The notes under the pieces were generated by a model, which was given only the letters and a program-made list of their open reading frames with translations, had not been told where the DNA came from and ran no database searches. A DNA stretch of 64,000 bases. Origin: Cryptosporangium phraense. GTDB lineage: Bacteria; Actinomycetota; Actinomycetes; Mycobacteriales; Cryptosporangiaceae. This document shows, in pieces, positions 11,346 through 39,168 of this stretch. Where the stretch lies: the NCBI RefSeq assembly GCF_006912135.1, contig NZ_VIRS01000001.1, positions 124,001-188,000 on the forward strand. Reading direction: 5' to 3'. Made by a program: the position numbers and the translations under genes. Every line of letters begins with the position of its first letter. Position 1 is the stretch's first letter.

Positions 11346-11420
11346 CACCGTTCGGAAGCGAACACTGGGCGCGGCAGCGCGCGCACAGAGCGGCCGGCCT
11401 CGGGCCGCTTCAATCGGTGC

Positions 11421-24608: not shown

Positions 24609-25730
24609 ATGGACGAGTCCCGGACCCGCGCGCTACTGACCAGGGTGGTGGCCGAGGCGCCGCCGCCCGCCGCGGTCGACATCGATCGCATCATCGAGCT
24701 CGCCCAGGCCCGCGACCGCGACCGGACGCGCTGGGTGATCGCCGCGGCCGCGGCCGTGCTCGTGGTCGTCGTCGTGGCGGTCACCACGCTGACGCTCGGC
24801 GGCAGCGCCGAGCGGGCCGCGCCACCGGCCGGGCCGATGAAGCTACCGATCCAGAAGCTCCCGGCCGAGAACCCGCACGCGAGCATCCCGCAGCCGGGCA
24901 GCGTGCCGGTCCGGTTCGACCTGATGCGCAGCGAGCTGCTGGTGAGCAACGTGCCGGACTCGCTGTACGAGCGGGGCACCTCGGTCCGGTACACCACGCT
25001 GGGCTTCTACGCCATCGGGCGCGGCCCGAACATGACCAGGAACTCCGTCTCGATCGTGCTGGGCTCCCGGGGCACGAAACTGAACCGCGAGAGGGGCAAC
25101 AAGATCGTGGAGACGAGGCCCGGCCCGAGCATCAACGGCCATCCGTCCACGCTGAACAAGTGGGACGACCCCTTCGGCTGGCAGCTGCTCTGGAACTGGG
25201 CGCCGGACGCGGAGGCCGAGGTCGACATCGAGGGGCTGCCCAACCCGGAGCAACTGGCGGCCAAGATCGCCACCGCCGTTCGGGTCAACTTCGCCGGCCA
25301 CGCCCGGCTGCCGTTCACGCTGCGCGCCCCGACCGGTGCCCTGCTGAGCGAATTCCAGGCGACGATCGACCTGTCGTCCGGCAAAGGCCGGAAGCCGTCG
25401 GCGACCGTCGCCTTCGCCGGGCCCGGCTCGGGCTTCATCAGCATCAACGCGAACCCGCTCGGCACCGGCATCGGCAAGCCGGACTCGGTCTACGAGGACC
25501 GGCCGGCGCGGATCAAGCACGAGCGGTCGGGCAACGGTCAGGGCGGCACGTTCAGCACGATGATCGTGGCCGCCGACGACCTGAAGATCACCGGCACCTG
25601 CAACTGGAACCCGAATCCGGAGGTCACCGAAGCGGAGTTCAAGAAGTTCTGCCTGTCGACGACCGCGAGCGTCCAGCGCGTCGGCAACTTCCGGAACGCG
25701 GCGGATTGGCCGATCTTCACCGTGCGCTAA
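24609..25730 (+). CDS. Single-pass membrane protein, probable partner of the sigma factor (copy 1)
   Basis: A 373-residue protein. A short cytoplasmic part opens MDESRTRALLTRVVAEAPPPAAVDIDRII, one helix follows at residues 40-60 (VIAAAAAVLVVVVVAVTTL), and the external domain is about 300 residues. The opening is very similar to that of the protein at 35674 (MDETTTRVLFQQISADAPRPSAVDLHRVV), so the cytoplasmic part probably binds the sigma factor. No zinc anti-sigma HxxxCxxC motif is seen. The outer domain has two cysteines near the C-terminus (TCNWN, KFCLS) but no family that I recognise. Confidence 0.7.
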   Translation: MDESRTRALLTRVVAEAPPPAAVDIDRIIELAQARDRDRTRWVIAAAAAVLVVVVVAVTTLTLGGSAERAAPPAGPMKLPIQKLPAENPHASIPQPGSVPVRFDLMRSELLVSNVPDSLYERGTSVRYTTLGFYAIGRGPNMTRNSVSIVLGSRGTKLNRERGNKIVETRPGPSINGHPSTLNKWDDPFGWQLLWNWAPDAEAEVDIEGLPNPEQLAAKIATAVRVNFAGHARLPFTLRAPTGALLSEFQATIDLSSGKGRKPSATVAFAGPGSGFISINANPLGTGIGKPDSVYEDRPARIKHERSGNGQGGTFSTMIVAADDLKITGTCNWNPNPEVTEAEFKKFCLSTTASVQRVGNFRNAADWPIFTVR

Positions 25731-25780
25731 TCCCACGATAACCGCCCATTGTGGATGTGACCCAGGCCACAATCGACGGC

Positions 25781-27721
25781 ATGGCTCCCCTTACCCCGGT
25801 CCGACGACGGCGCCCCTTCCGAGGCGTCGCCGTCGTCGTGACCACCCTGGCCCTGGCCGCGTTCCCGACCGTCCTCCCCGAGCCCGCTCGGGCGGCGTCG
25901 GACGCGCCCTACCTCAACCCCCGACTACCGGTCGAGCGGCGGGTCGACGACCTGCTGAAACGCATGACCCTGGACGACAAGGTCGGCCAGATGACGCAGG
26001 CCGAGCGGGCCGCCGTCACCGCGGATCCCTCGAAGATCACCACCCTGCGCTACGGATCGGTGCTCTCCGGCGGCGGCTCGACGCCGACGCCGAACACCGC
26101 CGCGGCCTGGGTGTCGATGATCAACGGGTTCCAGCGGGCGGCGCTGGCGACACCGCTGCACATCCCGCTCCTCTACGGGGTGGACGCGGTCCACGGCAAC
26201 GGCAACCTGCTCGGCGCGACGGTGTTCCCGCACAACATCGGCCTGGGCGCGACGCGGGATCCGGCGCTGGTGCGGAAGGTCTACGCCGCGACCGCCGACG
26301 AGACCGCCGCGGCCGGCGTGCCGTGGGACTTCGCGCCGTGCGTCTGCGTCACCCGCGACGAACGCTGGGGACGCACGTACGAGAGCTTCGGCGAGGATCC
26401 GGCCCTGGTCATCTCGATGGAGACCGCGATCGACGGGCTCCAGCGCTCGGGCGTGCTGGCCACCGCGAAGCACTACGCGGGCGACGGCGACACCGAGTTC
26501 GGCACCGGCAGCGGTGACTTCACGATCGACCAGGGCGTCACGGTCACGTCGCGCGAGGACTTCGCGCGCATCGACCTGGCGCCCTACGTCACCGCGATCC
26601 GGAAGCACCACGTCGGCGCGATCATGCCGTCGTTCTCCAGCGTCGACTGGACCGAGGACGGCGTCGGCAACCCGGTGAAGATGCACGCGAGCAAGGAGCT
26701 CATCACCGACGTCCTCAAGAAGAAGCTCGGGTTCGACGGGCTCGTCGTCACGGACTGGGAGGGCATCCACCAGCTGCCCGACCCGTCGGTGCCGGCCGAT
26801 GCGCCGCGGCCGACCGCGCTGCAGGTCCGGACCGCGGTGAACGCGGGAATCGACCTGTTCATGGAGCCCAACACCGCGCCGCAGTTCGTCGCCCTGCTGA
26901 AGGCCGAGGTCGTCGCCGGGCGGGTCAGCCAGGCGCGGATCGACGACGCGGTCCGGCGGATCCTCCGGACGAAGTTCCGGCTCGGGCTGTTCGAGCACCC
27001 CTACGCGTCGGTCGGCCAGGTTGGCACCGCGGCGCACCGGGCCCTGGCCCGCGAGGCGGTCGCGAAGTCCCAGGTGCTGCTCAAGAACTCGGGTCACGCG
27101 CTGCCGCTGTCGCGGAAGGCTCGCCTCTACGTGGCCGGTCGCAACGCCGACGACATCGGCAACCAGGCCGGCGGCTGGACCCTCGACTGGCAGGGCCGGT
27201 CCGGAGCCGACACGATCCCCGGCACGACGATCCTGGACGGCATCCGCGCGGTGGACCCGTCGGTGACGTACAGCGCTGACGCGTCCGCCCCGGTCGGCAA
27301 CGCCGATGTGGGTGTCGTCGTGGTCGGCGAGACGCCGTACGCGGAGGGCTTCGGGGACGTCGGTGGTCCGGTGTGGCCGAACGGCACCGAGGCCCAGAAG
27401 GAACCGAAGTCGCTGACGCTCTCGGCCGGCGATCGGGCCGTCGTGGCGAAGGTCTGCGCGGCGGTCTCCACGTGCGTGGTGCTGCTGGTCTCCGGCCGGC
27501 CGCAGGTCGTCACCGACCAGTTGCCGGTGATGGACGCGCTGGTCGCGTCGTGGTTGCCGGGCAGTGAGGGTGCCGGGGTCGCGGACGTCCTGTTCGGGCG
27601 GAAGCCGTTCACGGGCCGGTTGCCGGTGAGCTGGCCTCGTTCGGTGTCCCAGGTCCCGATCAACGTCGGCGACCGGTCGTACGACCCGCTGTTCCGCTTC
27701 GGCTACGGCCTGCACACGTAG
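25781..27721 (+). CDS. Secreted GH3-family beta-glucosidase
   Basis: A 646-residue glycoside hydrolase with a signal peptide (VAVVVTTLALAAFPTVLP, cut near ARAASDAP). The GH3 N-terminal barrel has GVDAVHGNGNL, WDFAPCVCVTRDERWGRTYESFGEDP and ATAKHYAGDGD. The nucleophile is D325 in VVTDWEG. The C-terminal alpha/beta domain contains VLLKNSGHALPL and SWLPGSEGAGVADVLFG. It releases glucose from beta-glucans or cello-oligosaccharides outside the cell. ATG 25781 is preferred for signal peptide length; GTG 25751 is in frame. A perfect bidirectional terminator follows. Confidence 0.9.
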   Translation: MAPLTPVRRRRPFRGVAVVVTTLALAAFPTVLPEPARAASDAPYLNPRLPVERRVDDLLKRMTLDDKVGQMTQAERAAVTADPSKITTLRYGSVLSGGGSTPTPNTAAAWVSMINGFQRAALATPLHIPLLYGVDAVHGNGNLLGATVFPHNIGLGATRDPALVRKVYAATADETAAAGVPWDFAPCVCVTRDERWGRTYESFGEDPALVISMETAIDGLQRSGVLATAKHYAGDGDTEFGTGSGDFTIDQGVTVTSREDFARIDLAPYVTAIRKHHVGAIMPSFSSVDWTEDGVGNPVKMHASKELITDVLKKKLGFDGLVVTDWEGIHQLPDPSVPADAPRPTALQVRTAVNAGIDLFMEPNTAPQFVALLKAEVVAGRVSQARIDDAVRRILRTKFRLGLFEHPYASVGQVGTAAHRALAREAVAKSQVLLKNSGHALPLSRKARLYVAGRNADDIGNQAGGWTLDWQGRSGADTIPGTTILDGIRAVDPSVTYSADASAPVGNADVGVVVVGETPYAEGFGDVGGPVWPNGTEAQKEPKSLTLSAGDRAVVAKVCAAVSTCVVLLVSGRPQVVTDQLPVMDALVASWLPGSEGAGVADVLFGRKPFTGRLPVSWPRSVSQVPINVGDRSYDPLFRFGYGLHT

Positions 27722-27731
27722 TCCGGCCGCT

Positions 27732-27767
27732 GCCGGGCGGGCCCTCCCCCTGATGGGCCCGCCCGGC
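27732..27767. terminator. Bidirectional terminator with 13-bp perfect stem
   Basis: GCCGGGCGGGCCC (27732-27744) pairs completely with GGGCCCGCCCGGC (27755-27767) around a 10-nt loop. It lies between the converging GH3 and GntP genes and serves both. Confidence 0.85.
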
Positions 27768-27772
27768 GCGGG

Positions 27773-29470
27773 CTAGAGAATCGACCAGACGATGACGGTC
27801 ATCGCGAAGCCGACGATCGAGAGGATCGTTTCCAGGACGGTCCAGGTGGCGAGCGTCTGTTTCACGGTCATGTTGAAGTAGCGGGAGATGATCCAGAAGC
27901 CGCCGTCGTTAACGTGGCTGGCGATGATCGAGCCGGCGCTGATCGCGATCACCAGCACCGCGAGTTGGGCGGCCGAGTAGTTCTCGTTCTCGACCAGCGG
28001 GGCGACGATGCCGCCGGTGGTGACCAGGGCCACGGTCGCCGAGCCCTGGGCCAGGCGGAGCGCACAGGAGATCAGGTAGGCCAGCGCGATGATCGGCAGG
28101 CCGGCGTCCTTGAGCGTGCCGGCCAGCGCGTCGCCGACGCCGGTCGCCGAGATGACCTTGCCGAAGAACGCGCCCGCGCCGACGACGAGCAGGATCATCC
28201 CGACCGGGCGCAGGGCCGCGGCCGTGACCTCGGAGAGCTCGGCGACCGTGCTTCCGCGGCGCACGCCGAGGAGCCAGAACGCGAGCAGCGTGGCGATCGT
28301 GAGCGCGACGGCCGGGTTGCCGAGGAACGTGAGCACCTGCAGGAACGTGCCCGGGTCGAGCGCGACCGTGCCGAACGTGGCGCCGAGGATCAGCACGAGC
28401 GGCACCAGGATGATCCCGAGCACCGTCCCCAACCCCACCGGCCGCACCCCGACCGCTCCGGCTACCCCGACCGACCCACCGGCCGGGCCCGCGGGCGCCG
28501 GGCTGATCGGCGCGGCCGCGCCCGCCCCGCGGCCCTCGCTCGCGCTCGCGCTCGCGCTCGTGCTCGCGCTCGTGCTCGTGCTCGCCGAGGTATCGGCCGC
28601 GTCGTCGGCTCCGGCTCCGGCTCCGGCCAGGCCATCCTCCGCCCGGCTCACGCCGCCGTCCCCAGTTCCTACGCCGCCGCCCGCGGCGCGGCCACCGCTC
28701 ACGCCGTCATCCCTACCGCCCGAGCCACGGTCACCGCCGACACCCGCACCGACCACCGCCGGCTGGGCGACGACCGACGTCTCGGCCTCTACCATCTCCT
28801 CCGGCACCGAGATGCTGATCCGCCGCCCGATCCACAGCGGCCAGGCGATACCCGCCGCCGCGAACGCCGGCAGCCCACAGATCAGACCCATCAGGATCAC
28901 CCACCCGAGGCTCACCCCGAGCAGCCCGGCCGCCGCCGTCGGACCCGGGTGCGGCGGCAGGAACGCGTGCGTCATCGACAACCCGGCGACCATCGGCAGC
29001 GCATAGAGCACCAGCGACCGCCCGCCCCGCAGCGCCGCGATGTACACCAGCGGCGCCAGCACGAAGATGCCGATGTCGAAGAACACCGGGATCCCGAAGA
29101 TCAACCCGGCCAGCCCCATCGCGACCGGCGCCCCGCGCTCGCCGAACCGCCCGGTGAGCTTCTCGACCAGCACGTCGGCGCCCCCGGACCGCTCCAGGAT
29201 CCCGCCGAGCACGGTGCCGAGCCCGACGATCACGGCGATGTGGCCGAGGATGCCGCCGAACCCGGTCTCCAGCACCGAGTCCGACGCCTTCAGCGCGGTG
29301 CCGACGATCTGCGACACCGGCAGCCCGGCCGCCAGCGCCAGCGCGAACCCGGCGATCAGCAGCGAGATGAACGGCTCGAGCTTGACCACGATGATCAGCG
29401 CGAGCAGCACGGCGATCGCCGCCGCGCAGAGCAGCAGTAAGCCGCCCGTCGAATCTTGCAGCCAACTCAC
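27773..29470 (-). CDS. GntP-family sugar-acid permease with unusual insert
   Basis: A 565-residue transporter of the gluconate:proton symporter family, about 110 residues longer than usual. Two blocks of hydrophobic helices (residues 15-220 and 345-565) carry family marks such as ETGFGGILGHIAVIVGLGTVLGG, LPPHPGPTAAAGLL and SHVNDGGFWIISRYFNMT. Between them, at about residues 225-345, is a low-complexity G/A/S/D-rich loop that follows the variable loop of normal members. It should import an aldonic or amino-aldonic acid. It is the last gene of the minus-strand cluster and overlaps the KDPG aldolase stop by 4 nt. Confidence 0.85.
   Translation of the reverse strand: MSWLQDSTGGLLLLCAAAIAVLLALIIVVKLEPFISLLIAGFALALAAGLPVSQIVGTALKASDSVLETGFGGILGHIAVIVGLGTVLGGILERSGGADVLVEKLTGRFGERGAPVAMGLAGLIFGIPVFFDIGIFVLAPLVYIAALRGGRSLVLYALPMVAGLSMTHAFLPPHPGPTAAAGLLGVSLGWVILMGLICGLPAFAAAGIAWPLWIGRRISISVPEEMVEAETSVVAQPAVVGAGVGGDRGSGGRDDGVSGGRAAGGGVGTGDGGVSRAEDGLAGAGAGADDAADTSASTSTSASTSASASASEGRGAGAAAPISPAPAGPAGGSVGVAGAVGVRPVGLGTVLGIILVPLVLILGATFGTVALDPGTFLQVLTFLGNPAVALTIATLLAFWLLGVRRGSTVAELSEVTAAALRPVGMILLVVGAGAFFGKVISATGVGDALAGTLKDAGLPIIALAYLISCALRLAQGSATVALVTTGGIVAPLVENENYSAAQLAVLVIAISAGSIIASHVNDGGFWIISRYFNMTVKQTLATWTVLETILSIVGFAMTVIVWSIL
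28536..28585. repeat. Hexanucleotide repeat in the GntP insert
   Basis: Eight tandem copies of GCTCGC or GCTCGT encode alternating Ser-Ala and Ser-Thr on the minus strand. The pure hexamer tract suggests slippage and possible length variation without frame loss. Confidence 0.85.
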
Positions 29471-30084
29471 GTCAGACCTCCGGTGAACTCGGTAGCGCGT
29501 CGGGTGATGCCGGACCAGTCAGCGGCGCTGACCACGTCGGGAGGGACCACGCCCGTCCCGGCGGTAACGGCGGCGGCCCCCGCCGCCAGGTACTCGGCCG
29601 CATTGGCGGCCGTGACACCCCCCGAAGGCACGAGCTTCAGCCCCGGATACGGCCCGTGCAGATCACGCAGGTAGCGCGGCCCGAACGCCGACGCCGGGAA
29701 CACCTTCACCGCGGCCGCGCCCAGGTCGGCCGCGGCCAGCACCTCGGTCGGCGTCAACGCGCCGAGGAGGAACGGCACGCCCGCGTCGAGCGCGACCGAC
29801 GCCACCGCGGGCAGCACGCCCGGCGTCACCAGGAACCGGGCCCCGGCGTCGATCGCGGCCCGGGCGTCGGACGCGGTCAGCACCGTGCCCACGCCCACGA
29901 CCACGCCGGGCACGGACGCCGCCGCCGACAGGTGGCGCAGCACGTCCGGCGTCGTGAACGTCAGCTCGACGGTGCGGATCCCGCCGTCGGCCAGCGCCTG
30001 GCACAACGCCGGAGCCGACGGCAGCACCGGCGCCCGCACCACGCACACGACGCGGTCGGCGAACATCGCCCCGAGCGCGCTCAC
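29467..30084 (-). CDS. eda: KDPG/KHG aldolase
   Basis: A 205-residue class I aldolase that cleaves 2-keto-3-deoxy-6-phosphogluconate to pyruvate and glyceraldehyde-3-phosphate. The catalytic glutamate E40 is in TVELTFTTP and the Schiff-base lysine K127 is in AAVKVFPASAFGP, with VPSGGV as the phosphate-binding turn. Start and stop overlap both neighbours by 4 nt, placing it firmly in an operon with the deacylase and permease. With the KDG-type kinase encoded divergently it completes the lower Entner-Doudoroff steps. Confidence 0.9.
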   Translation of the reverse strand: MSALGAMFADRVVCVVRAPVLPSAPALCQALADGGIRTVELTFTTPDVLRHLSAAASVPGVVVGVGTVLTASDARAAIDAGARFLVTPGVLPAVASVALDAGVPFLLGALTPTEVLAAADLGAAAVKVFPASAFGPRYLRDLHGPYPGLKLVPSGGVTAANAAEYLAAGAAAVTAGTGVVPPDVVSAADWSGITRRATEFTGGLT

Positions 30085-31646
30085 CGCAGCGACCGGCCGG
30101 GCCGCGCCGACGTCCGGCGCCCGTCGTCGATCACTCGCTGACCGTCCACGAAGACGTACGGGATGCCGACCGCAGGCCGGCGCGGATCCTCGAACGTGGC
30201 CCCGGCCGCGACCGTCGACGGATCGAACAACACCAGGTCAGCCACCGCGCCCACCCGCAGCACGCCGCGGTCGGCGAGCCCGAGCCGGGCCGCGGGGCGG
30301 CCGGTCATCCGGGCCACGCACTCCTCCAGCCCGAGGACCCGCTCCTCCCGCACGTAGTGGCCGAGGTACCGCGGGAAGGTCCCCCACGCCCGCGGATGCG
30401 GACGCCCGCCGACCAGCAACCCGTCGCTGCCGGCCAGGTGCTTCGGGTGCCGCATGATCTCGCGGACGTTCGGCTCGTGGCCGACGTGCTGCAGGATCGT
30501 CGTGCCGAGGCGGTCACGGCGGAGCACGTCGACGAAGACCTCGAACGCCTCCCGGCCGGATTCCGCGGCCACCGCCGCGATCGTCGCGCCGACCAGCGCC
30601 GACAGCTCCGGGTTCCGGACGCCCGAGATCTGCAGCGTGTCCCACTCGGCCACCACGCCGTGGCAGCCGTCGGAGCCGGTGACCTCGAGGTTCTCACGAA
30701 TCCGGGCCAGCGCGCCCGGATCCTCCAGACGGGCCAGCGTCGCGGCCGGACCGCCGGTCGCCGACCAGCTCGGCAGGACCGCGGCGAGCGTCGTCGAGCC
30801 CGGGAGGTACGGGTAGGTGTCGAGCGTGACGTCGAGGCCGTCGCCGAGCGCCGCGTCGACGAGCGCCAGTAACTCGCCCGCCCGGCCGCGGTTGACCGAG
30901 AAGTTCATCGTCGCGTGGGTGAGGTGCAGCGCGACGCCGCTGCGCCGGGCGACCTCGACCATCTCGGCGTAGGCCTCGATCGCGCCCTTCCCGTAGGAGC
31001 GCTGGTGCGGCGCGTAGAACCCGCCGTGCTCGGCGACGACCCGGCAGAGCGCGACCAGCTCGTCGGTGTCGGCGAACATGCCCGGCACGTAGGTGAGCCC
31101 GCTCGACATCCCGGCCGCGCCCTCGTCGAGGCCTTCGCCCACGAGCGCGGCCATCCGCCGGACCTCGTCCGGCGTCGCCGGCCGGTCCTCGGTTCCCACG
31201 ACCATCATGCGGACGCTGCCCTGCGGCACGAGATACACGACGTTGACGGCGGCGCCGCGATCGACGACGTCCAGATAGCCCCCGACCGTCCGCCACGGAA
31301 TCTCGTCGGGGACGCCGTTCCAGCCCGCCAGCTGCTCGCGCAGGATCGGGAGCGTGGTGTCGTCGATCGGCGCGTAGCTCAGGCCGTCCTGGCCGACGAC
31401 CTCGGTGGTGACGCCCTGGGTGGTCTTGGCCAGGTGTTCGGGGTCGGCGACGACCGCGAGATCGGAGTGTGCGTGCATGTCGATGAAGCCGGGCGCGAGG
31501 ACGAGACCGTCGGCCTCGATCGTGTGCGTGGCGGTGGCCGTCGACCCGAGCTCGGTGATGCGACCGCCCTCGATCAGTGCGTCAGCGCGGTACCCGGGCG
31601 CGCCGGTGCCGTCGACGATCGTGGCGCCCCGGATCGCGGTGCTCAT
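30081..31646 (-). CDS. N-acyl-D-amino-acid deacylase (D-aminoacylase-like amidohydrolase)
   Basis: A 521-residue metal amidohydrolase. It opens IRGATIVDGTGAPGYRADALIEGG and has the HxH metal pair in GFIDMHAHSDLAV, later LHLTHATMN, and a C-terminal DPSTVAAGATFEDPRRPAVG. Family members release D-amino acids from N-acyl forms. The usual NCG with a metal-bridging cysteine reads VVGQDGLSYAP here, with aspartate in its place, which may shift specificity. ATG 31646 overlaps the stop of the upstream PLP enzyme (ATGA). In this cluster the best-fitting substrate is N-acetyl-D-glucosaminate, whose C2 is D-configured; this is inference. Confidence 0.82.
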   Translation of the reverse strand: MSTAIRGATIVDGTGAPGYRADALIEGGRITELGSTATATHTIEADGLVLAPGFIDMHAHSDLAVVADPEHLAKTTQGVTTEVVGQDGLSYAPIDDTTLPILREQLAGWNGVPDEIPWRTVGGYLDVVDRGAAVNVVYLVPQGSVRMMVVGTEDRPATPDEVRRMAALVGEGLDEGAAGMSSGLTYVPGMFADTDELVALCRVVAEHGGFYAPHQRSYGKGAIEAYAEMVEVARRSGVALHLTHATMNFSVNRGRAGELLALVDAALGDGLDVTLDTYPYLPGSTTLAAVLPSWSATGGPAATLARLEDPGALARIRENLEVTGSDGCHGVVAEWDTLQISGVRNPELSALVGATIAAVAAESGREAFEVFVDVLRRDRLGTTILQHVGHEPNVREIMRHPKHLAGSDGLLVGGRPHPRAWGTFPRYLGHYVREERVLGLEECVARMTGRPAARLGLADRGVLRVGAVADLVLFDPSTVAAGATFEDPRRPAVGIPYVFVDGQRVIDDGRRTSARPGRSLR

Positions 31647-32896
31647 CCGAACACCGTTCGCACCAGATCGACGACGACCGGCTCGGGCGCGTGGGCGTCG
31701 TCGAGGACCGGGAGCAGGCCCCACTTGTCGAACGTCGTGCACGGGTGGGAGAGGCCGAGCCGCAGGACGTCGCCGACCCGCAGGTTCTCGGCGTCGCCGG
31801 TGAGGCGGACGAACGTGTGCTGGTCGGCCAGCGCGGTGACCTCGGCGCCGGTCACCGCCTCGGCCGGGCCGGCACCGCTACGGCGGACCGCCTGCACCTC
31901 GGGCAGGCCCTCGTCGAATGGCAGGTCGCGCTTGCCGCCGTCGGCCAGCGCGAGCCCGGGCTCGGGCCGGGAGATCACCCGGACCCAGCCGTGCAGCGCG
32001 GCCCGGAAGCCCGGCCCGGAGGCCCGGTTCGACGGCGAGATGCCCCGGTAGAAGCCGTCGTCGTGGGCCAGGTAGGCCCCGGCCCGGACGACGACGCGGG
32101 TGGCCGGCGGGTCGTGCAGCGGTGCGAGCACGTCGGCGACCAGGTCGAAGTACGCGCTGCCGCCCGCGGTGACGATCGCCTCGCCGTCGTAGAGGTCACC
32201 GAGCGCGGTGTGCAGGGCGGCGAGTTGCTCGAGGTAGGCCCGGATCGTCGCCAGGCTCTCGGCCGACGCGTCGTGGGCCAGCACGCCCTCGTAGCCGGCG
32301 ACCCCGGCCAGGCGGAGGCCGGGCGTGGCGGCGACGGCCCGGGCGGTGGCCACGGCGGCCTCGATCGTCCGGGCGCCGGTGCGCCCGCCGGACGCTCCGA
32401 AGTCGACGAGCACGTCGATCGGTTGCGCGGCCCCGGCGACGTGCGGCGCCATCGCCTCGACAACGTCCACGCCGTCGGCCCAGACCAGGACGCGCGCCGA
32501 CCGCGGTTGCCCGAGCCGGCGCAGCACGGCCGGGACCAGCACCGGATACGCGGCCAGCACGCACGGCACGCCCTCGGAGAGCGCGACCGCCAGCTGCCAC
32601 GGCGTCGCGACCGTGATGCCCCAGGCGCCGTCGTCGAGCTGGGCGCGCCAGAGCGACGGGGCCATCGTGGTCTTGCCGTGCGGTGCGAGATCGACGCCGA
32701 CCCGGCCGGCCCAGCCGGTGAGCGCGGCGGCGTTGCTGTTCAGCGCCCCGGCGTCGAGCGTGACCAGCGGGGTGGGCAGCGTCGCCAGACCGGGCGCGTA
32801 GGCGACGAAGTCGGCCCCGGTGCGGCCCCAGGCGTCGACCGGGATCGCCTTGTACTCCGGGCCGAGCAGCCCGATCTTCTCCGCGTCGTACCGCAC
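31643..32896 (-). CDS. Fold-III PLP enzyme: D-serine dehydratase/D-threonine aldolase-like
   Basis: A 417-residue enzyme of the DSD1/D-threonine aldolase family, with an alanine-racemase-type barrel. The PLP lysine is in LAPHGKTTMAP. The C-terminal domain has SHPCTTFDKWG, which gives the histidine and cysteine of the family's zinc site. Such enzymes act on D-amino acids with a beta-hydroxyl group, eliminating water or splitting off an aldehyde. GGAGG precedes GTG 32896. It is the first gene of the minus operon. Acting on D-glucosaminate, dehydration would give 2-keto-3-deoxygluconate plus ammonia, the substrate of the kinase encoded divergently. Confidence 0.82.
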   Translation of the reverse strand: MRYDAEKIGLLGPEYKAIPVDAWGRTGADFVAYAPGLATLPTPLVTLDAGALNSNAAALTGWAGRVGVDLAPHGKTTMAPSLWRAQLDDGAWGITVATPWQLAVALSEGVPCVLAAYPVLVPAVLRRLGQPRSARVLVWADGVDVVEAMAPHVAGAAQPIDVLVDFGASGGRTGARTIEAAVATARAVAATPGLRLAGVAGYEGVLAHDASAESLATIRAYLEQLAALHTALGDLYDGEAIVTAGGSAYFDLVADVLAPLHDPPATRVVVRAGAYLAHDDGFYRGISPSNRASGPGFRAALHGWVRVISRPEPGLALADGGKRDLPFDEGLPEVQAVRRSGAGPAEAVTGAEVTALADQHTFVRLTGDAENLRVGDVLRLGLSHPCTTFDKWGLLPVLDDAHAPEPVVVDLVRTVFG

Positions 32897-32915
32897 GCCG
32901 CCACACCTCCGAGCG

Positions 32916-32940
32916 TTGCGCATTGTGCAATGGGCGTTGC
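32916..32940. promoter_or_regulatory. Palindrome and direct repeat, probable IclR operator
   Basis: TTGCGCATTGTGCAA (32916-32930) is a 15-bp near-perfect palindrome with 6 of 7 pairs matching. GCGTTGC occurs at 32913-32919 and again at 32934-32940, 21 bp apart. The site is midway between the two divergent operons of the cluster, so the IclR protein could control both. Confidence 0.6.
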
Positions 32941-32971
32941 AAAATCGATGCCACCGTTTTAGCATCGACGC

Positions 32972-33919
32972 ATGCCGGGGGCAATGGATCAAGCGGGAAA
33001 AATCGTCTGCGTCGGCGAGGCGATGGCGGTGCTGACGCCGGCCCACGACGTCCCGCTCCGCGACGCCGCGGAGTTCGTGCGCACGGTCGGCGGGGCCGAG
33101 CTGAACGTCGCGCTGACGCTGGCCGGCCTCGGCGTGCCCACCGCGTGGCTCTCCCGGCTCGGCGACGACGGGTTCGGGGCCCACGTGCTCGCGGTCGCGG
33201 CGGAGTCCGGAGTGGACGTGAGCGCGGTCGAGAACGACCCGGTCCGTCCGACCGGCCTGTACGTCAAGGCGCCCGGCACCGCGTCCGACGGCTCCCGCCG
33301 GTCGGCGATGCTCTACTACCGCGACGGTTCGGCCGCGTCCGCGCTCTCCCCCGGCTACCTGCGCCGTCCGGCGGTCGCGGCCGCGCTCGCCGGCGCCCGG
33401 TTCGTGCACGTCAGCGGCATCACCCCAGGTCTCTCCGACGACGCCGCCGCGTTCTGCGACGCGCTCGCCGCCGGGCCGGCCACGCTCACCGTCGACCTGA
33501 ACTACCGGCCCGCGCTGTGGCGCGATCGGGACGACGCCCCGCTGCGCCGGCTGCTGGCCGCCGCCGACGAGGTGCTGCTCGGCGCCGACGAGGCCGCGCT
33601 CGTCTTCGGCACCACCGAGCCCGGGGCGCTGCTGCGTGCGCTGCCGTCGGCCCGCCGGGTCTTGCTCAAACAGGAGGAGCACGGCGTCCTCGTCCTCACG
33701 CCCGGGGAGGCGCCCGTTCACGTCCCCGCGCTCGACGTCGAGGTCGTCGAGCCGGTCGGCGCCGGCGACGCGTTCGCCGCCGGCTACCTGGCCGGGCGGT
33801 GGCACCGTCTGGCCGTCCCCGAAGCGGTCGCGCTGGGGCACCGCTGTGCGGCGGCCGCGCTGGTGGTCCGGGAAGATCGACCGGTGACGCTGCCCGCCTG
33901 GGAGGACCTCGTCGGATGA
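32972..33919 (+). CDS. kdgK: PfkB-family 2-keto-3-deoxygluconate kinase
   Basis: A 315-residue ribokinase-type sugar kinase. The opening VCVGEAMAVLTP and GGAELNVALTLAGLGVPTAWLSRLGDDGFG bind the sugar, and EPVGAGDAFAAGYLAG near the end holds the anion hole and catalytic aspartate. The strand LYYRDGSAASALSP matches KDG kinases. It should make KDPG for the aldolase encoded divergently. ATG 32972 or 32984 could be the start. The stop overlaps the IclR gene by 4 nt (ATGA). Confidence 0.85.
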   Translation: MPGAMDQAGKIVCVGEAMAVLTPAHDVPLRDAAEFVRTVGGAELNVALTLAGLGVPTAWLSRLGDDGFGAHVLAVAAESGVDVSAVENDPVRPTGLYVKAPGTASDGSRRSAMLYYRDGSAASALSPGYLRRPAVAAALAGARFVHVSGITPGLSDDAAAFCDALAAGPATLTVDLNYRPALWRDRDDAPLRRLLAAADEVLLGADEAALVFGTTEPGALLRALPSARRVLLKQEEHGVLVLTPGEAPVHVPALDVEVVEPVGAGDAFAAGYLAGRWHRLAVPEAVALGHRCAAAALVVREDRPVTLPAWEDLVG

Positions 33920-34662
33920 GTCAGTCAGTAGCCCGGGCGCTGTCGCTGCTCGATCGCGTCGCCAACGGCACCGCGACGCTCGGCGAGCTCGCCGCGGCCG
34001 AAGGCGTCCACAAGAGCACGGTGCTGCGGCTGCTCCGGGTCCTGGAGGACGAGGGTTTCGTCCACCACGACGGCGAGCACCGGTACGTGCTCGGCCCGCA
34101 CCTGTTCCGGCTGGCCCAGCAGGCGCTCGACTCGTTCGACGTCCGGGTGGTGGCGATGCCCCGGCTCAAGGCGCTCCGCGACGAGATCGGCCAGACCGTG
34201 CACCTGGCGATCCTCGACGGCTCGGTGGCGGTCTATGTCGACAAGTTGGAGCCGCGCGAGATGCCCGTCCGGATGGCGTCCCGGATCGGGAAGACCGCGG
34301 CGCTGCACAGCACCGCGGTCGGGAAGGTCCTGCTGGCCGGGCTCGATCCCGCGGAGCGGGGCGAGCTGATCGCCGACCTGACCTATCCGCGGTTCACCGA
34401 CCGCACGCCGGCCGGGCCGGCCGAGCTCATCATCGAGGTCGACACCGCGGCCGCGCACGGCTGGGCCGAAGACCACGCCGAGAACGAGACGTTCATCAAC
34501 TGTGTCGGCGCACCGATCCGCGGTGCCGACGGCCGCACGCTGGCCGCGGTGTCGATCTCGGTGCCCGACGTGCTGCTGCCCTACGAGGGTGTGCTCGATC
34601 TGGTGCCCGCCCTGCTCACCGCCACCACCGACATCTCCCGCGAGTGCGGGTACCGAGACTGA
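33916..34662 (+). CDS. IclR-family transcriptional regulator
   Basis: A 248-residue regulator. The N-terminal winged helix has LGELAAAEGVHKSTVLRLLRVLEDEGFV. The effector domain has MASRIGKTAALHSTAVGKVLLAGL and FINCVGAPIRGADGRTLAAVSISVP. IclR proteins of the KdgR type sense 2-keto-3-deoxygluconate or related acids. Its place between the kinase and RidA genes, and the palindrome upstream, point to local control of both divergent operons. Start overlaps the kinase stop by 4 nt. Confidence 0.9.
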   Translation: MSQSVARALSLLDRVANGTATLGELAAAEGVHKSTVLRLLRVLEDEGFVHHDGEHRYVLGPHLFRLAQQALDSFDVRVVAMPRLKALRDEIGQTVHLAILDGSVAVYVDKLEPREMPVRMASRIGKTAALHSTAVGKVLLAGLDPAERGELIADLTYPRFTDRTPAGPAELIIEVDTAAAHGWAEDHAENETFINCVGAPIRGADGRTLAAVSISVPDVLLPYEGVLDLVPALLTATTDISRECGYRD

Positions 34663-34670
34663 GGAGTTCG

Positions 34671-35069
34671 ATGAACACCGCGATCAGCACCAACCAGGCC
34701 CCGACGCCCGCGCACACGTACTCCCAGGGCGTCCGCCAGGGCAACGTGCTGCAGGTGTCCGGCCAGGGGCCGGTGGACCCGGCGACGAACGAGTACCTGC
34801 ACCCCGGCGACGTCGCCAAGCAGACCGAGCGGACGCTGCTGAACGTCGAGGCGATCCTCCAGGCCGGCGGCGCGACCTTCGACGACGTGGTCATGCTGCG
34901 CGTCTACCTGACCGATCGGGCGCACTTCGCGACGATGAACGAGGCCTATGGCGCGTTCGTGTCGTCGCGGGTCACGTCGGGCGTGCTCCCGGCCCGCACG
35001 ACCGTGATGGTCGGCCTCCCCCGCGAAGAGATGCTGGTCGAGATCGACGCCCTGGCGGTCCTCGGCTAG
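34671..35069 (+). CDS. RidA/YjgF-family enamine/imine deaminase
   Basis: A 132-residue member of the Rid family. Marks are YSQGVRQGNVLQVSGQGPVDPAT, a central NVEAILQAGGATFDDVVMLRVYLTD and late LPARTTVMVGLP with the usual arginine for carboxylate binding. RidA hydrolyses reactive enamines and imines released by PLP dehydratases, so it suits the divergent PLP enzyme. GAGGAG lies 4 nt before ATG 34671. It is the third gene of the plus-strand operon. Confidence 0.9.
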   Translation: MNTAISTNQAPTPAHTYSQGVRQGNVLQVSGQGPVDPATNEYLHPGDVAKQTERTLLNVEAILQAGGATFDDVVMLRVYLTDRAHFATMNEAYGAFVSSRVTSGVLPARTTVMVGLPREEMLVEIDALAVLG

Positions 35070-35081
35070 CTCGCCGACGCG

Positions 35082-35113
35082 GGCAACCGTACGCCGGGCA
35101 GCGCCCGTCATAG
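35082..35113 (+). promoter_or_regulatory. Putative autoregulated sigma promoter, GGCAACC-N20-CATAG
   Basis: GGCAACC (35082-35088) and CATAG (35109-35113) lie upstream of the second sigma gene, matching the elements at 24017-24047 before its paralogue. Confidence 0.5.
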
Positions 35114-35146
35114 ACGGGACTGATCCTCGGCGACCGGAGGACCGAC

Positions 35147-35671
35147 GTGAGCGAGCGGCCGGGCGACGCGTACCTGGAGTACGTGCGAGCCCGCTTACCG
35201 GTGTTCCAGCGGCTGGCGTACATGCTCTGCCAGGACCGGGACCGCGCCGACGACCTGGTTCAGGACTCGCTCGAGCGGCTGTACCTGAAGTGGGACAAGG
35301 CCGACGACGCCCGCAACACCGACGCGTACGCCCGCCAGATGCTGGTGCGCGTCTTCCTCAGCGAACGCCGGACGCCGTGGGCGCGACGGGTCGTGCTGGT
35401 CGACCGTTTCCCCGACGCGGCGGGCGCGGCCGGCCCCGGCACCGCGGCGACGCTCGCGGTGCGGGCCGCGCTGGCCCAGCTACCCCCGAGGCAGCGCGCG
35501 GTGCTGGTCCTGCGGTTCTTCTCCGATCTTCCGGTCGACGAGGTCGCCGAGACGCTCGGGTGTTCACCCGGGACGGTCAAGAGCCAGACGTCGAAAGGGC
35601 TGGCGGCGCTGCGGCGCGCGTTACCGGACTTCGAGACCACGGCCCCGGCCGGCCTCGGGACGAGGAGCTGA
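35147..35671 (+). CDS. SigE-family (ECF) RNA polymerase sigma factor, copy 2
   Basis: A 174-residue protein, the same length as the sigma factor at 24082 and similar throughout: EYVRARLPVFQRLAYMLCQDRDRADDLVQDSLERLY in region 2 and LPPRQRAVLVLRFFSDLPVDEVAETLGCSPGTVKSQTSKGLAALRRALP in region 4. The linker ERRTPWARRVVLVDRFP is nearly unchanged between the two. GTG 35147 follows GGAGGACCGAC. The next gene starts 2 nt after the stop. The pair is a duplicated signalling unit. Confidence 0.92.
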   Translation: MSERPGDAYLEYVRARLPVFQRLAYMLCQDRDRADDLVQDSLERLYLKWDKADDARNTDAYARQMLVRVFLSERRTPWARRVVLVDRFPDAAGAAGPGTAATLAVRAALAQLPPRQRAVLVLRFFSDLPVDEVAETLGCSPGTVKSQTSKGLAALRRALPDFETTAPAGLGTRS

Positions 35672-35673
35672 GA

Positions 35674-36723
35674 ATGGACGAGACCACGACCCGGGTGCTG
35701 TTCCAGCAGATCTCCGCGGACGCCCCACGCCCTAGCGCCGTCGACCTGCACCGGGTCGTCCGCCGCGCCGAACGGAGGCGGCGGCGCCACCGACGGCGGG
35801 TGGCCTCGGTGGCCGGGCTGACCGTGCTCGTGCTGACGTCGGCCGTCGCGGTGCTGGTCACCGGCGTCGGCCCCGATCGCACCGACATTGCGGCCCCGGC
35901 CGTGCCCGGCCCCGGCTACGGGCCGACGCTCACCAGCGCACCGGCCGAGTTCGATCCGGCCCGCCACGCCATCCAGGTCGGCTGGCTGCCGTCCGGCAAC
36001 CCGTACGTGACGCAGCAGGTCAGCACCACGGAGGTCGCGCTCATCGCGTCCGACCGGGACGGCGAGTCCGACTACTGGATCCGGCTGGCGCCACGGGGCC
36101 ACGCGCTGAACCAGACGTTCCACGGCATGCAGAACGCCTCGTCCGTCGCCGGACCGGAGATCGGCGGAGAGCCCAGCCGCTGGTTCACCGCGGCGGGCAC
36201 GCACGAGCACGAACTGCGGTGGCAGTGGGCTCCCGGGGCCGAGGCCGGCGTGCTGGTCGACGACGGGCCCGACGCCCTCGAGACCGCCGTCCGCATCGCG
36301 ACGTCGACCCACGTCACCGACACCGCACTGCGCCTGCCGTTCACGATCGCGACCCCGCCGGCCTACCGGCTCGACTCGGTCACGTTCAGCCGCCGTGGCG
36401 ACGAGCTCCGCACGTACGGGGCGACGTACCAGGACCCGGCCACCGGCTCGTTCATCGACGTCGGCGTCGCGTCGAACACGCTCACGCTCGACTTCGAGCC
36501 GAACGCGGTGATCGCCCACCGGCCCGGGCAGACCATTCAGGACGGCGAGTTCAGCCGGGTGCGCGTGCGGCAACCGACCGTGCAGTTCGAAGTCAGCTGC
36601 GCCGAGCGGCCCAAGACCGCGCGGAGCGTCGCGATCGCGACCGGGACGTGCCGGGCGGCCGCCGACACTATCCGGCTCGTCGCGAACCCGTTGCGATGGG
36701 ACACCTGGCCCCGTGTGCGCTGA
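35674..36723 (+). CDS. Single-pass membrane protein, probable partner of the sigma factor (copy 2)
   Basis: A 349-residue protein with the layout of the one at 24609. It has a short cytoplasmic opening with an arginine-rich stretch ([13 protein letters not shown]), one helix near 48-66 (VASVAGLTVLVLTSAVAVLV), and an external domain with a segment (HELRWQWAPGAEAGVLVDD) matching QLLWNWAPDAEAEVDIE in copy 1. This supports common descent. Two late cysteines (VSCAERP, GTCRAA) are kept in both. Anti-sigma or signal-receiving function is inferred from gene order. The 3' end overlaps a hydrolase remnant on the other strand. Confidence 0.7.
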   Translation: MDETTTRVLFQQISADAPRPSAVDLHRVVRRAERRRRRHRRRVASVAGLTVLVLTSAVAVLVTGVGPDRTDIAAPAVPGPGYGPTLTSAPAEFDPARHAIQVGWLPSGNPYVTQQVSTTEVALIASDRDGESDYWIRLAPRGHALNQTFHGMQNASSVAGPEIGGEPSRWFTAAGTHEHELRWQWAPGAEAGVLVDDGPDALETAVRIATSTHVTDTALRLPFTIATPPAYRLDSVTFSRRGDELRTYGATYQDPATGSFIDVGVASNTLTLDFEPNAVIAHRPGQTIQDGEFSRVRVRQPTVQFEVSCAERPKTARSVAIATGTCRAAADTIRLVANPLRWDTWPRVR

Positions 36724-37024
36724 CCCCGGACCAGGCCGCGTTTCGCAGGTCAGCAGCCCACTCGGTGACGATCTTCGCGTATCGCGGCGGGTCGAACTGG
36801 TGCATCGTGTGCGGCGCGTCCGGCACCGACTCGTACGCGACCGGCACGCCGGCCGCCTCCATCAGCGTCCGCGCGTAGCCGGCCTGGTCATCGGAGAGCG
36901 CGCCGATCAGGTCCCCGGTCTCCGGGTCGATCGTCCGCAGGTGGTGGGTCATCGGCACCGGCTTCTTCACCTGCGCCAGCATCCGCTCGTGCGGACAGTG
37001 CAGACCGACCGTCCCTTCGTAGAA
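36668..37024 (-). pseudogene. C-terminal remnant of an alpha/beta hydrolase
   Basis: Reading leftwards from about 37,024, the frame gives FYEGTVGLHCPHERMLAQ, then THHLRTIDPETGDLIGALSD and YESVPDAPHTMHQFDPPRYA. This looks like the last 110 residues of an alpha/beta hydrolase, with the catalytic histidine in APHTMHQFDP. The N-terminal core with the nucleophile is missing. The frame is open but starts abruptly at the point where the IclR remnant on the other strand also starts. Confidence 0.7.
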
Positions 37025-37026
37025 CG

Positions 37027-37535
37027 GTGGGCGCGTTGGAGCGTCTCCCGGACGGCGAGTTCGTCGTCGGGTTGCAGCTGCTGGAGATCGCGTCGTGGGC
37101 CCCGCGGGGGCACGGCCTGCGCGCGGCCGCGCTGCCGTACCTGGAGGACCTGCACCGGGTGACGCGTCAGCACATCCTGCTCGGGGTGCGGGACGGGTCC
37201 GAGGCGGTGCTGGTCGAGCGGCTGTCGGCGCCGGACGAGGTGCGCGACGCGGTGCTGGCCGAGGCGCCGGAGGCGGGCCGGATACGGCGGTTCATGGCCC
37301 AGGTCCGGGCCGAGGGCGTCTGCGCGGTGACCGGCCCGAACCCGGTCGGAGGCGCGGGCCCGGCCACCGTCTCCACGGTCGCGGCGCCGATCGTGACCCG
37401 GAGCGGAGAGGTCACGGGAGCCGTCTCGCTGGTGGCCCCGGACGACGGAGGGGCGCTCCTCGCGGCCCGCGTCGCGGTCCGCACGGCCGCCCTCCCGATC
37501 TCCCGAGCGGCCGCCCGGCCCACCCCCGCGGCCAC
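37027..37535 (+). pseudogene. IclR-family regulator remnant
   Basis: The frame begins ALERLPDGEFVVGLQLLEIASWAP, the wing of an IclR helix-turn-helix; the first 55 or so residues are absent. The effector domain lacks the block between LSAPDEV and RDAVLAEAP (where the RLPLHATGVG-type motif should be) and another before IRRFMAQVRAEGV. The end AAPIVTRSGEVTGAVSLVAP is readable, but the frame then runs without a natural stop into the antisense of the PucR gene. It is therefore non-functional. Confidence 0.75.
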
Positions 37536-37557
37536 GAACCCGCGGCCACGAACCCGG

Positions 37558-39168
37558 CTACGGACGCAAGGCCCGCAACTGCACCATCAGGCCGAACCGC
37601 TGATCAGGGTCGCTGAGATCGCACTGCCCCACGTCGGCCACCCGGCGCAGCCGGTACCGGAACGTGTTCTGGTGCACGCCGACCGACTCCGCGGCCAGCA
37701 CGGTGTCCCCGAACGCGTCGAGCCAGGCCCGCAGCGTCTGGATCAGGTTGCCGCGGTGCTCGTCGTCGTACTCGGCCAGCCGGGCCAGCGCCCCGGTCGG
37801 CTTCTCGCCGCGGGCCGCGGCCAGGTCGCGCAGCTCGGAGATCAACGCCTCGCCCTGCAACTCGTCGAACCGGCCGATCCGGCGCCGGGGACGTCCGTCG
37901 CGCAGGAGGCGCAGCACCCGGTCGACGCTCGACCGGCTGCGGGCGACGTCGGACAGGTCGTGCGCCACCGGGCCGACGGCGGTGATCGACGGCAGCCGGT
38001 CGCCCAGCCGGTCGAGGAAGCCCTGCAGGATCCGCTCGGCCCGGCTCCCGGCCTTCTCCGGCGCCCCGGTCGCCGGCACCAGCCCGTAGGTGACCGCGCC
38101 GATCGCCGCGGCCACCGCGGACGGGTGCACCGCGTGCAGGTGCAGCGCGAACGCGTCGCTGAGCCCCTGCCGGTCGTGCATCACGCGCGCGCTGTCGGAC
38201 GTGTCCCGCTCGTCCAGCGCCACGCCCAGCACGAGCAGCGGCTGACTCGACAGCCCGAGCCGCTCGAGCGCCTCACCCGCCCCGACCCCGCCCTCCAGCG
38301 CCGCGTTGAGCAGGTCGGCCCGCATCCGCCGCTGGACGTCGGCCCCGGCCCGGACCCGCAGCAGGTGCAGGGCGACGAGGTTGGCCGCCTCGCGCAGGGC
38401 GTCGTTCCGCTCGTCGCTCAGCGGCCCGGGCACCGCGGCCCAGATCGAGCCGAGCACCTCGTCGCCGGCCCGCACCCGGATCGCGACGCGGGGCACGACG
38501 AAGCCGTTGATCCGGTCCGGGATCGGCTCGATGTACACGGGCTGGTCGCCGCGGAGCAGCTCCCGGAAGACCCCCCGCTCGTGCAGCACCCGCGCGTACC
38601 GCTCCGGCACCTGACGGCCGAGGATCGTGTCGACCCGCGACGAGTCGGCCTCGTCCTGGCGCCCGGAGAAGGCCAGCACGCGGGAGCTGCGGTCCTCGAT
38701 CGTCACCGGCCCGTCGAGCAGGGCGGCGATCGCGTTGGCCACCGCGAACAGGTCACCGGCGGGCAGCCCGCCGAGCACGGCCTCGTCGGCCGGGCCGGGG
38801 TCGGATCCGGGCGCGAGCAGCGAGCGCAGCATCTCGTTGAGGTGGCCCCAGGTGACGCCCCGGCGCAGGCCGAGCACGACGACCCCGGCCTCGTCGGCCG
38901 CGGCCCGCACCTCGTCGGTCAGCGGCACCGGGGCCCGGACGACGAGCGCGGCCACGCGCTGCTCCCCCAGTCGGCGGACGAGCTCCGGCGACACCGACAG
39001 GCCGATGCCGAGCACCAGCGCCGAGGCCGGCAGCACCGGCTGGTCGGACGGGTCGTGGAAGACGACCGCGCCGAGCTCGTCCGGGCGGCCGACGTCGCCG
39101 TACACGTGCTCGAGCAGCGTGGCGCCGAGGTCGTCGACCACGCGACCGAGACTCACGCGAGGCCGCAT
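37558..39168 (-). CDS. PucR/CdaR-family transcriptional regulator
   Basis: A 536-residue regulator. Residues 1-150 fit the PucR N-terminal domain (LGATLLEHVYGDVGRPDELGAVVFHDP). The middle is a GGDEF-like degenerate domain, and the C-terminus has the HTH_30 motif AAESVGVHQNTFRYRLRRVADV. PucR proteins activate catabolic operons in response to nitrogen compounds. ATG 39168 is 17 nt after the racemase stop, so it is the last gene of the D-peptide operon and probably its regulator. A long antisense reading frame across it is a shadow. Confidence 0.88.
   Translation of the reverse strand: MRPRVSLGRVVDDLGATLLEHVYGDVGRPDELGAVVFHDPSDQPVLPASALVLGIGLSVSPELVRRLGEQRVAALVVRAPVPLTDEVRAAADEAGVVVLGLRRGVTWGHLNEMLRSLLAPGSDPGPADEAVLGGLPAGDLFAVANAIAALLDGPVTIEDRSSRVLAFSGRQDEADSSRVDTILGRQVPERYARVLHERGVFRELLRGDQPVYIEPIPDRINGFVVPRVAIRVRAGDEVLGSIWAAVPGPLSDERNDALREAANLVALHLLRVRAGADVQRRMRADLLNAALEGGVGAGEALERLGLSSQPLLVLGVALDERDTSDSARVMHDRQGLSDAFALHLHAVHPSAVAAAIGAVTYGLVPATGAPEKAGSRAERILQGFLDRLGDRLPSITAVGPVAHDLSDVARSRSSVDRVLRLLRDGRPRRRIGRFDELQGEALISELRDLAAARGEKPTGALARLAEYDDEHRGNLIQTLRAWLDAFGDTVLAAESVGVHQNTFRYRLRRVADVGQCDLSDPDQRFGLMVQLRALRP

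Follow-up and report, generated by a model that had tools for sequence, protein, structure and literature searches.

A divergent gene cluster of Cryptosporangium phraense, a probable actinobacterial unit for the catabolism of N-acyl-D-glucosaminate

Described routes and the Cryptosporangium cluster

Degradation of N-acetylglucosamine (GlcNAc) aldonic acid is encoded by the ong cluster of Pseudoalteromonas prydzensis, as demonstrated by knock-outs and in vitro (PMC9537276). Its enzymes are the deacetylase OngB, the fold-III pyridoxal phosphate (PLP) enzyme OngC, which converts D-glucosaminate (GlcN1A) to 2-keto-3-deoxygluconate (KDG) and ammonia, the RidA protein OngD, which is essential and whose role is given there as unknown, and the kinase KdgK. 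The ong clusters of Vibrio, Klebsiella and Serratia add kdgA, the gene of KDG-6-phosphate aldolase. According to the same study, whose survey required four co-occurring homologues at >30% identity, the complete oxidative chitin pathway is reported only from Gammaproteobacteria and one betaproteobacterium. We describe here a divergent cluster of seven genes at positions 27773-35069 of a 64,000-nucleotide stretch (the window) of the actinobacterium Cryptosporangium phraense (contig NZ_VIRS01000001.1). It likely encodes a pathway of this kind, with N-acyl-D-glucosaminate as the probable substrate.

A sequence-only reading of the window had pointed to a marine oxidative chitin pathway with the same logic. 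Such a pathway is indeed described (PMC9537276), and the logic itself is thus not new. Glucosaminate also passes to a keto-deoxy-gluconate stage in the route of DgaE (glucosaminate-6-phosphate ammonia-lyase), but the substrate of this enzyme is a phosphorylated, non-acylated acid. For chitin-eating haloarchaea, PMC12343721 puts forward an untested DgaE-like route that comprises IclR and RutC-family genes, and PMC11653859 relates that the ong route was sought in Aeromonas and could not be confirmed. Among the matches listed in the open-licence literature, no actinobacterial version of the pathway was found.

Pfam and NCBIfam place all seven genes in the families first read from their translations. 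The minus strand carries a GntP-family permease (gluconate:H+ symporter family; 27773-29470; PF02447, 1.6e-114; TIGR00791), which is a probable importer, an Eda-type 2-keto-3-deoxy-6-phosphogluconate (KDPG) aldolase (29467-30084; PF01081, 2.1e-41; TIGR01182), a D-aminoacylase-family amidohydrolase starting with the ATG at 31646 and proposed to be an N-acyl-D-glucosaminate deacylase (30081-31646; PF07969, Amidohydro_3, 4.2e-41), and a fold-III PLP enzyme, the proposed D-glucosaminate dehydratase/ammonia-lyase (31643-32896; PF14031, D-ser_dehydrat, 4.4e-20). On the plus strand are a PfkB-family KDG kinase (32972-33919; PF00294, 7e-42), an IclR-family regulator (33916-34662; PF01614 and PF09339) and a RidA/YjgF-family enamine/imine deaminase (34671-35069; PF01042, Ribonuc_L-PSP, 3.6e-32; TIGR00004 above cut-off). 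The 4-nucleotide overlaps noted earlier are present at three minus-strand junctions (31643-31646, 30081-30084 and, between aldolase and permease, 29467-29470), and the kdgK/iclR junction on the plus strand has another (33916-33919). The PLP gene probably starts at GTG 32894-32896, downstream of a GGAGG; an alternative ATG (32921-32923) falls within the operator-like dyad described below. The RidA frame is open from GTG 34644, ATG 34671 being the more likely start.

In the proposed pathway, GntP would import the acylated acid and the amidohydrolase would remove its acyl group. The PLP enzyme would then withdraw water and ammonia from free D-glucosaminate to give KDG, while RidA would hydrolyse or clear the enamine/imine. 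Phosphorylation by the PfkB kinase would yield KDG-6-phosphate, which the Eda-type aldolase would split into pyruvate and glyceraldehyde-3-phosphate. The IclR protein would act at the dyad that lies between the two arms, as a local repressor or activator. On the whole it is rather probable that the genes form a local catabolic unit under IclR control, with an N-acylated 2-amino-2-deoxy-D-aldonate as substrate; this acid is most likely N-acetyl-D-glucosaminate (GlcNAc aldonic acid). An acetyl and another acyl group, or the gluco and another configuration, are not to be told apart by sequence.

The window and ong clusters share a D-aminoacylase-family deacylase, a fold-III PLP deaminase, a RidA protein and a sugar kinase, and the proposed intermediates are identical. 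They differ in the importer, which is GntP in the former and the sodium:solute symporter OngIT in the latter, in the regulator (IclR as opposed to the MurR/RpiR protein OngR), in the deacylase, which belongs to another clade and has another metal-site residue, and in the host, actinobacterial in one case and gammaproteobacterial in the other. Neither a GH20 gene (OngA) nor a TonB receptor is among the seven genes of the cluster; for GH20, this negative applies to the seven proteins only. The neighbouring gene at 25751-27721 encodes a GH3 protein whose top-scoring NCBIfam models, none of which reaches its cut-off, describe glucosidases. An ong-type cluster was located in Pseudoalteromonas shioyasakiensis (L123). 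The window deacylase matches its counterpart there in two pieces, at 34% and 40% identity, and the PLP enzyme is 32% identical (5e-58) to that OngC and stands outside the OngC subclade. By sequence, the window and ong proteins are the same kinds of enzymes and only distant relatives. The proposed chemistry is that of the ong pathway, yet in its deacylase, importer and regulator the cluster stands outside the ong family.

Conservation of the cluster and of an operator-like dyad

Orthologous loci were taken as the best 80 of at least 556 confirmed deacylase relatives (60-73% identity), and neighbouring genes were scored by tblastn at 1e-8 within flanks of up to 8 kb, some of them shortened by contig ends. 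The 80 loci come from Kineococcus, Streptomyces, Kitasatospora, Kribbella, Nocardia, Rhodococcus, Arthrobacter, Saccharopolyspora and other genera. The PLP enzyme is kept in 79 of them, RidA in 75, IclR in 72 and GntP in 47. The sequence-only reading was to be refuted if kinase and aldolase were absent from most homologous clusters; they were found in 68 and 51 of the 80, respectively, and this refutation thus fails. All seven genes occur in 30 loci, 28 of the 80 have the exact gene order of the window, and in each of the 68 loci that hold both, the PLP and kinase genes are transcribed divergently. With this divergent pair in 68/80 loci and the full set in 30/80, the cluster is conserved far beyond chance. 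In a survey of the class, the deacylase had a match at 1e-60 in 93 of 296 genomes; of these, the 51 that scored highest (at least 475 bits) are referred to below as cluster genomes. The PLP gene adjoins the deacylase gene in all 29 class loci (L004-L032).

The region between the divergent genes holds an operator-like element, GCAAC-N5-TTGC-N7-GCAAC (32915-32940, minus strand), which consists of a core dyad (32916-32930) preceded by a half site. The dyad TTGC-N7-GCAA is present in 76 of 79 divergent regions (the window and 78 loci). These regions hold 76 sites in 28,349 bases, compared with 9 sites in 1,327,480 bases elsewhere in the same loci, and in mononucleotide-shuffled controls the dyad occurs in a mean of 0.28 regions (maximum 2). 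It is missing from L033, L070 and L078, the first two of which have no IclR or kinase gene in reach. The dyad is a probable local site for the IclR protein, which comes nearest to the NCBIfam models KdgR and BhcR but stays below the cut-off of each. The 26-nucleotide element has a single exact match in the 8.46-Mb genome, the cluster's own. When one mismatch is allowed, three matches are found against six in a reversed-pattern control; since there is no excess suggestive of a wider regulon, only the local site is counted. One of the two one-mismatch sites adjoins a gene read as a WhiG/FliA-like sigma factor. A scan of positions 25000-38000 against Rfam gave no RNA element at gathering score.

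A deacylase clade apart from OngB

The deacylase has GQDG where OngB has GNCG, with Asp86 (numbered without the start Met) at the position of the metal-ligand Cys97. Asp occupies this position in the window and in all 109 orthologue rows (the 80 loci and 29 further rows that may repeat species). Relative to OngB, the HxH motif, the two metal His, the catalytic Asp and Arg379 are kept; His57, His59 and Asp407 are invariant. The position of Lys254, an anchor of the substrate carboxylate in OngB (PMC12017989), is Thr245 in the window; it is Thr in 104 of 110 rows and Val in the other 6, with His also found in distant clade members. Ser290 and Glu226 of OngB correspond to Gly and Tyr, and Ser292 to Thr284. 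In PpOngB, the S292T change lowers kcat/Km to 1.3%, and Thr occupies the same position in the D-aminoacylase AfDam and the N-acyl-D-glutamate deacylase BbDam (PMC12017989). Gln298 of OngB falls at a long insertion in the window protein, where the alignment is unsure.

In a tree of 75 rows, all 55 Asp86 rows lie on one side of a single branch (Shimodaira-Hasegawa-like approximate likelihood ratio test, 98), apart from the three OngB rows and the other Cys rows. The tree was built by a quick method and rooted on OngB, with long branches for L121, L162 and L164. Identification of the deacylase as OngB was rejected on both the residues and the tree. Of the pathway as first read, the logic is supported, the enzyme kinds being those of the proven ong route, while its deacylase lies outside the OngB clade and lacks key OngB residues.

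An AlphaFold2 model of the deacylase (predicted local distance difference test score, pLDDT, 90.4) has the subtype V D-aminoacylase fold, with beta-domain, TIM-barrel, HxH and catalytic Asp. The nine top Foldseek matches are all D-aminoacylase-family or OngB entries (E 4.4e-46 to 9.3e-44), and solved relatives of the protein include D-aminoacylase 1m7j and PpOngB 9kb1. The model matches such entries along its full length (Z 55.6-57.6). PpOngB (9kb1, 9kb3; PMC12017989) shares the whole-chain fold (Z 55.9-56.2, root-mean-square deviation 1.9 A) and differs in that the window enzyme has a longer insertion domain together with the substitutions at Cys97, Lys254, Ser290, Ser292 and Glu226. AfDam (1m7j) and BbDam (3gip) align similarly with the model (Z 57.1-57.5) and share its Thr at the Ser292 position; in contrast to them, the window deacylase has neither the metal-ligand Cys nor the Lys anchor, and its gene has sugar-acid neighbours. 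Because D-aminoacylase and OngB entries both match over the whole length, the fold does not tell the substrate. Two Klebsiella pneumoniae entries named 'N-acyl-D-amino-acid deacylase' (9g5m, 9gv8) rank with OngB and the D-aminoacylases; the substrate assigned to them may be worth re-examining with GlcNAc aldonic acid in mind.

Gene neighbourhoods separate the two metal-site types. A kinase or aldolase gene is in reach of 79 of 108 Asp86 rows (68/80 orthologous loci, the window and 10/27 others), as against 3 of 19 Cys rows; these three are the ong-type loci, and outside ong clusters the count is 0/16. The 27 Asp and 16 Cys rows come from 40 hand-picked stretches and four plasmid records. L162, which has neither Asp nor Cys, was excluded, and the Asp rows L155 (GADG) and L164 (CPDG) were counted though not GQDG. 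As Asp86 arose once on the tree, its link with the kinase is one historical association, for which independent contrasts are impossible. Several further Asp86 rows pair the deacylase with kinase or aldolase in other gene orders (L130, L140, L142, L146, L148, L149, L152). Thus, L130 has a deacylase-kinase operon (55% identity), L140 has the order PLP-aldolase-kinase-RidA-X-deacylase, and in L146, L148 and L149 kinase and aldolase lie beyond PLP-deacylase-IclR; deacylase identity is 36-42% in L140 and these last three. Cys-type neighbours include peptide ABC transporters with RidA (Azospirillum) and a dipeptide epimerase gene (Natrialba).

Other neighbours bear on the kind of substrate. In L128, a DgaE-like gene and RidA accompany the deacylase, as detailed below. 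NagB and ROK genes lie near the L131 deacylase, AnmK and NagA genes in L033, the nearest relative of the window, and a gluconokinase gene in L062. PF10282 lactonases were found in 4 of the 80 loci (L033, L076, L094, L102), whereas 40 further stretches had none. Taken with the Eda-type aldolase, the neighbouring genes suggest that the substrate is an acid of an amino sugar and rather of the gluco than of the galacto form, each hint being weak alone. A suspected oxidase in L076 proved to be an amidohydrolase. In Eleftheria terrae (L118, 5619-8152), a lactonase gene directly precedes an OngC-like fold-III PLP gene; the annotation of this stretch shows neither a deacylase nor a kinase. In Promicromonospora (L072, 8001-11441), an Asp86 deacylase gene stands beside a PLP gene of the 1-aminocyclopropane-1-carboxylate (ACC) deaminase type, over the cut-off of the ACC deaminase model; the locus also has frames resembling a LacI regulator and parts of a sugar ABC system. 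A protein of about 400 residues with no Pfam match is encoded near an Asp86 deacylase and RidA in L140 (9557-10756) and L141 (4377-5564).

The best PDB match of the kinase is the Thermus thermophilus KDG kinase 1v19 (1.1e-39); Arg117 and Arg179 are kept in 68/68 orthologues and Asp266 in 67/68. The aldolase scores 172.5 bits with TIGR01182 eda (cut-off 156.05) and 95.6 with the 2-dehydro-3-deoxy-6-phosphogalactonate aldolase model (cut-off 207). Being of the Eda type and not the phosphogalactonate type, it favours the gluco configuration. Its Lys, Glu, Thr, Pro and Phe are conserved as in Eda, from which we take the residue roles and numbers; the presumed Schiff-base Lys is found in 50 of 51 orthologues, one being gapped, and Arg49 is replaced by Thr in all 51. 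In the PLP enzyme, an HxC pair, which we take to be its zinc site and a mark of dehydratases, is present in the window and in 79/79 orthologues; the aligned D-threonine aldolase 4v15 carries HxD instead. The pair was scored by aligned columns, a strict regular expression having missed 95 of 112 rows. The PLP lysine is found in 109 of 111 aligned rows, the remaining two being gapped. The permease is above the TIGR00791 gntP cut-off and scores 189 bits with the DsdX model (cut-off 618). Its PF02447 match is in two stretches, and an in-frame, low-complexity insert of about 120 residues, rich in Ala, Ser, Thr and Gly, separates the GntP halves (about 28435-28813).

Substrate, alternatives and meaning

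Several observations weigh against the assignment to N-acyl-D-glucosaminate. By residues and tree, the deacylase is not OngB but a separate clade, with Asp for Cys97 and several OngB substrate residues lost. The GntP family takes in D-serine carriers such as DsdX, hence the permease, first read as one for sugar acids, is not diagnostic. OngC deaminates D-Ser and D-Thr in addition to D-glucosaminate (PMC9537276). The window and ong kinases are only 25% identical (2.5e-14), and the window RidA has no blastp match to P. shioyasakiensis OngD at 1e-3 (it is 28% identical to a Klebsiella RidA); neither protein would pass the identity bar of the published survey. Neither kinase nor aldolase is within reach in 12 of the 80 loci, and the aldolase is absent in reach in 29. 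Three loci (L050, L053, L090) keep the dyad with no IclR or kinase match in reach, leaving the presumed IclR binding unexplained there, and no DasR-like site above the shuffled level was found in the divergent region. Lastly, DgaE hits number 13 in 9 of 296 genomes, and only one, in L128, was seen beside a deacylase. This DgaE-like PLP gene (10450-11577, below the model cut-off) adjoins an Asp86 deacylase and RidA, with no fold-III gene in reach. The genome of the window has no TIGR01437 match at 1e-30.

Some of these points would suit catabolism of N-acyl D-amino acids such as D-Ser, D-Thr or hydroxylated D-residues. A DsdX-like GntP would import the compound, and deacylation and dehydration by the PLP enzyme would give a keto acid, with RidA clearing the enamine and the kinase and aldolase as mere neighbours. 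Beyond the activity of OngC itself, the deacylase has the D-aminoacylase fold and, as in AfDam, a Thr at position 284, the PLP enzyme has its best PDB match in 3gwq, named 'D-serine deaminase' (2.7e-57), and in Enterobacterales the genes next to relatives of the PLP enzyme encode an amino-acid ABC transporter, IclR and RidA, joined in Pantoea by a racemase-family gene. However, a simple D-amino acid would have no need of a KDG kinase or KDPG aldolase, whereas these are kept in 68 and 51 of the 80 loci within one divergent unit that shares one dyad, and they accompany Asp86 rows and not the Cys rows outside ong clusters. We consider this alternative unlikely.

Another acylated 2-amino-aldonate, such as N-acetyl-D-galactosaminate, a pentose homologue or an acid with a non-acetyl acyl group, might instead be degraded through the matching 2-keto-3-deoxy acid. 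The deacylase pocket is unlike that of OngB at several substrate positions, and the closest NCBIfam model of the kinase, below cut-off, is the bifunctional kinase for KDG and 2-keto-3-deoxygalactonate. In an ong-like cluster of Klebsiella pneumoniae (L125, CP125156.1, 7562-14823), the annotated kinase and aldolase are of the galacto type and the deacylase frame seems to be broken; this cluster is possibly a galactosaminate version. Against this, the window aldolase exceeds the Eda cut-off and stays far under the phosphogalactonate-type one, and among solved structures the kinase comes closest to a KDG kinase. Such a substrate seems improbable. A general KDG route (pectin or gluconate, for example) beside an unrelated amidohydrolase and deaminase would agree with the kinase, Eda-type aldolase, GntP and KdgR-like IclR families, which are usual for sugar acids, but is very improbable given that the deacylase gene overlaps both the PLP and aldolase genes in operon-like fashion and has the PLP gene as its most constant neighbour.

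The origin of the predicted substrate, N-acyl-D-glucosaminate, is a separate matter. The genome of the window has two AA10 lytic polysaccharide monooxygenase (LPMO) genes (PF03067 over cut-off), and LPMO genes occur in 86 of 296 class genomes, namely in 40 of the 51 cluster genomes as against 46 of the remaining 245. This excess is driven by two families (26/26 and 11/11), and 11 cluster genomes are without LPMO, which again speaks against the proposed link. The co-occurrence that the sequence-only reading offered as a check follows taxonomy; it was for these reasons rejected as proof of a chitin link and is not counted as evidence for one. Pfam reveals no chitin-active family among the seven proteins. 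The link to chitin is therefore weak, and the acid could come from oxidised peptidoglycan or free GlcNAc instead.

Two similar frames, at 24082-24606 and 35147-35671, were read from their translations as extracytoplasmic function (ECF) sigma factors. Each is overlapped or followed by a membrane-protein-like frame, and the pair, perhaps an old duplication, flanks the GH3 gene and the seven-gene cluster. Further downstream, 36668-37560 holds possible remnants, namely an IclR C-terminal piece of about 45 residues (PF01614) without a DNA-binding match and a short frame read as an alpha/beta hydrolase tail, with no Pfam match.

Actinobacteria are major chitin degraders on land, and in the literature we found no route ascribed to them for the aldonic acid left by LPMOs. 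If the assignment is correct, the cluster would fill this gap in Streptomyces, Kribbella, Nocardia, Rhodococcus, Arthrobacter and others, and a pathway reported, in the literature found, only from Proteobacteria would be widespread in soil actinobacteria. The chances seem about even that N-acyl-aminoaldonate deacylases have evolved separately a second time, as the Asp86 (GQDG) clade, whose metal site would be Asp/His/His and not Cys/His/His, and that this clade is central to a pathway by which sugars of oxidised chitin or peptidoglycan are degraded and which is widespread in these organisms. GQDG would then serve as a sequence marker separating sugar-acid deacylases from genes labelled D-aminoacylase, and the same pathway would exist in two builds, each around its own member of a single enzyme family.

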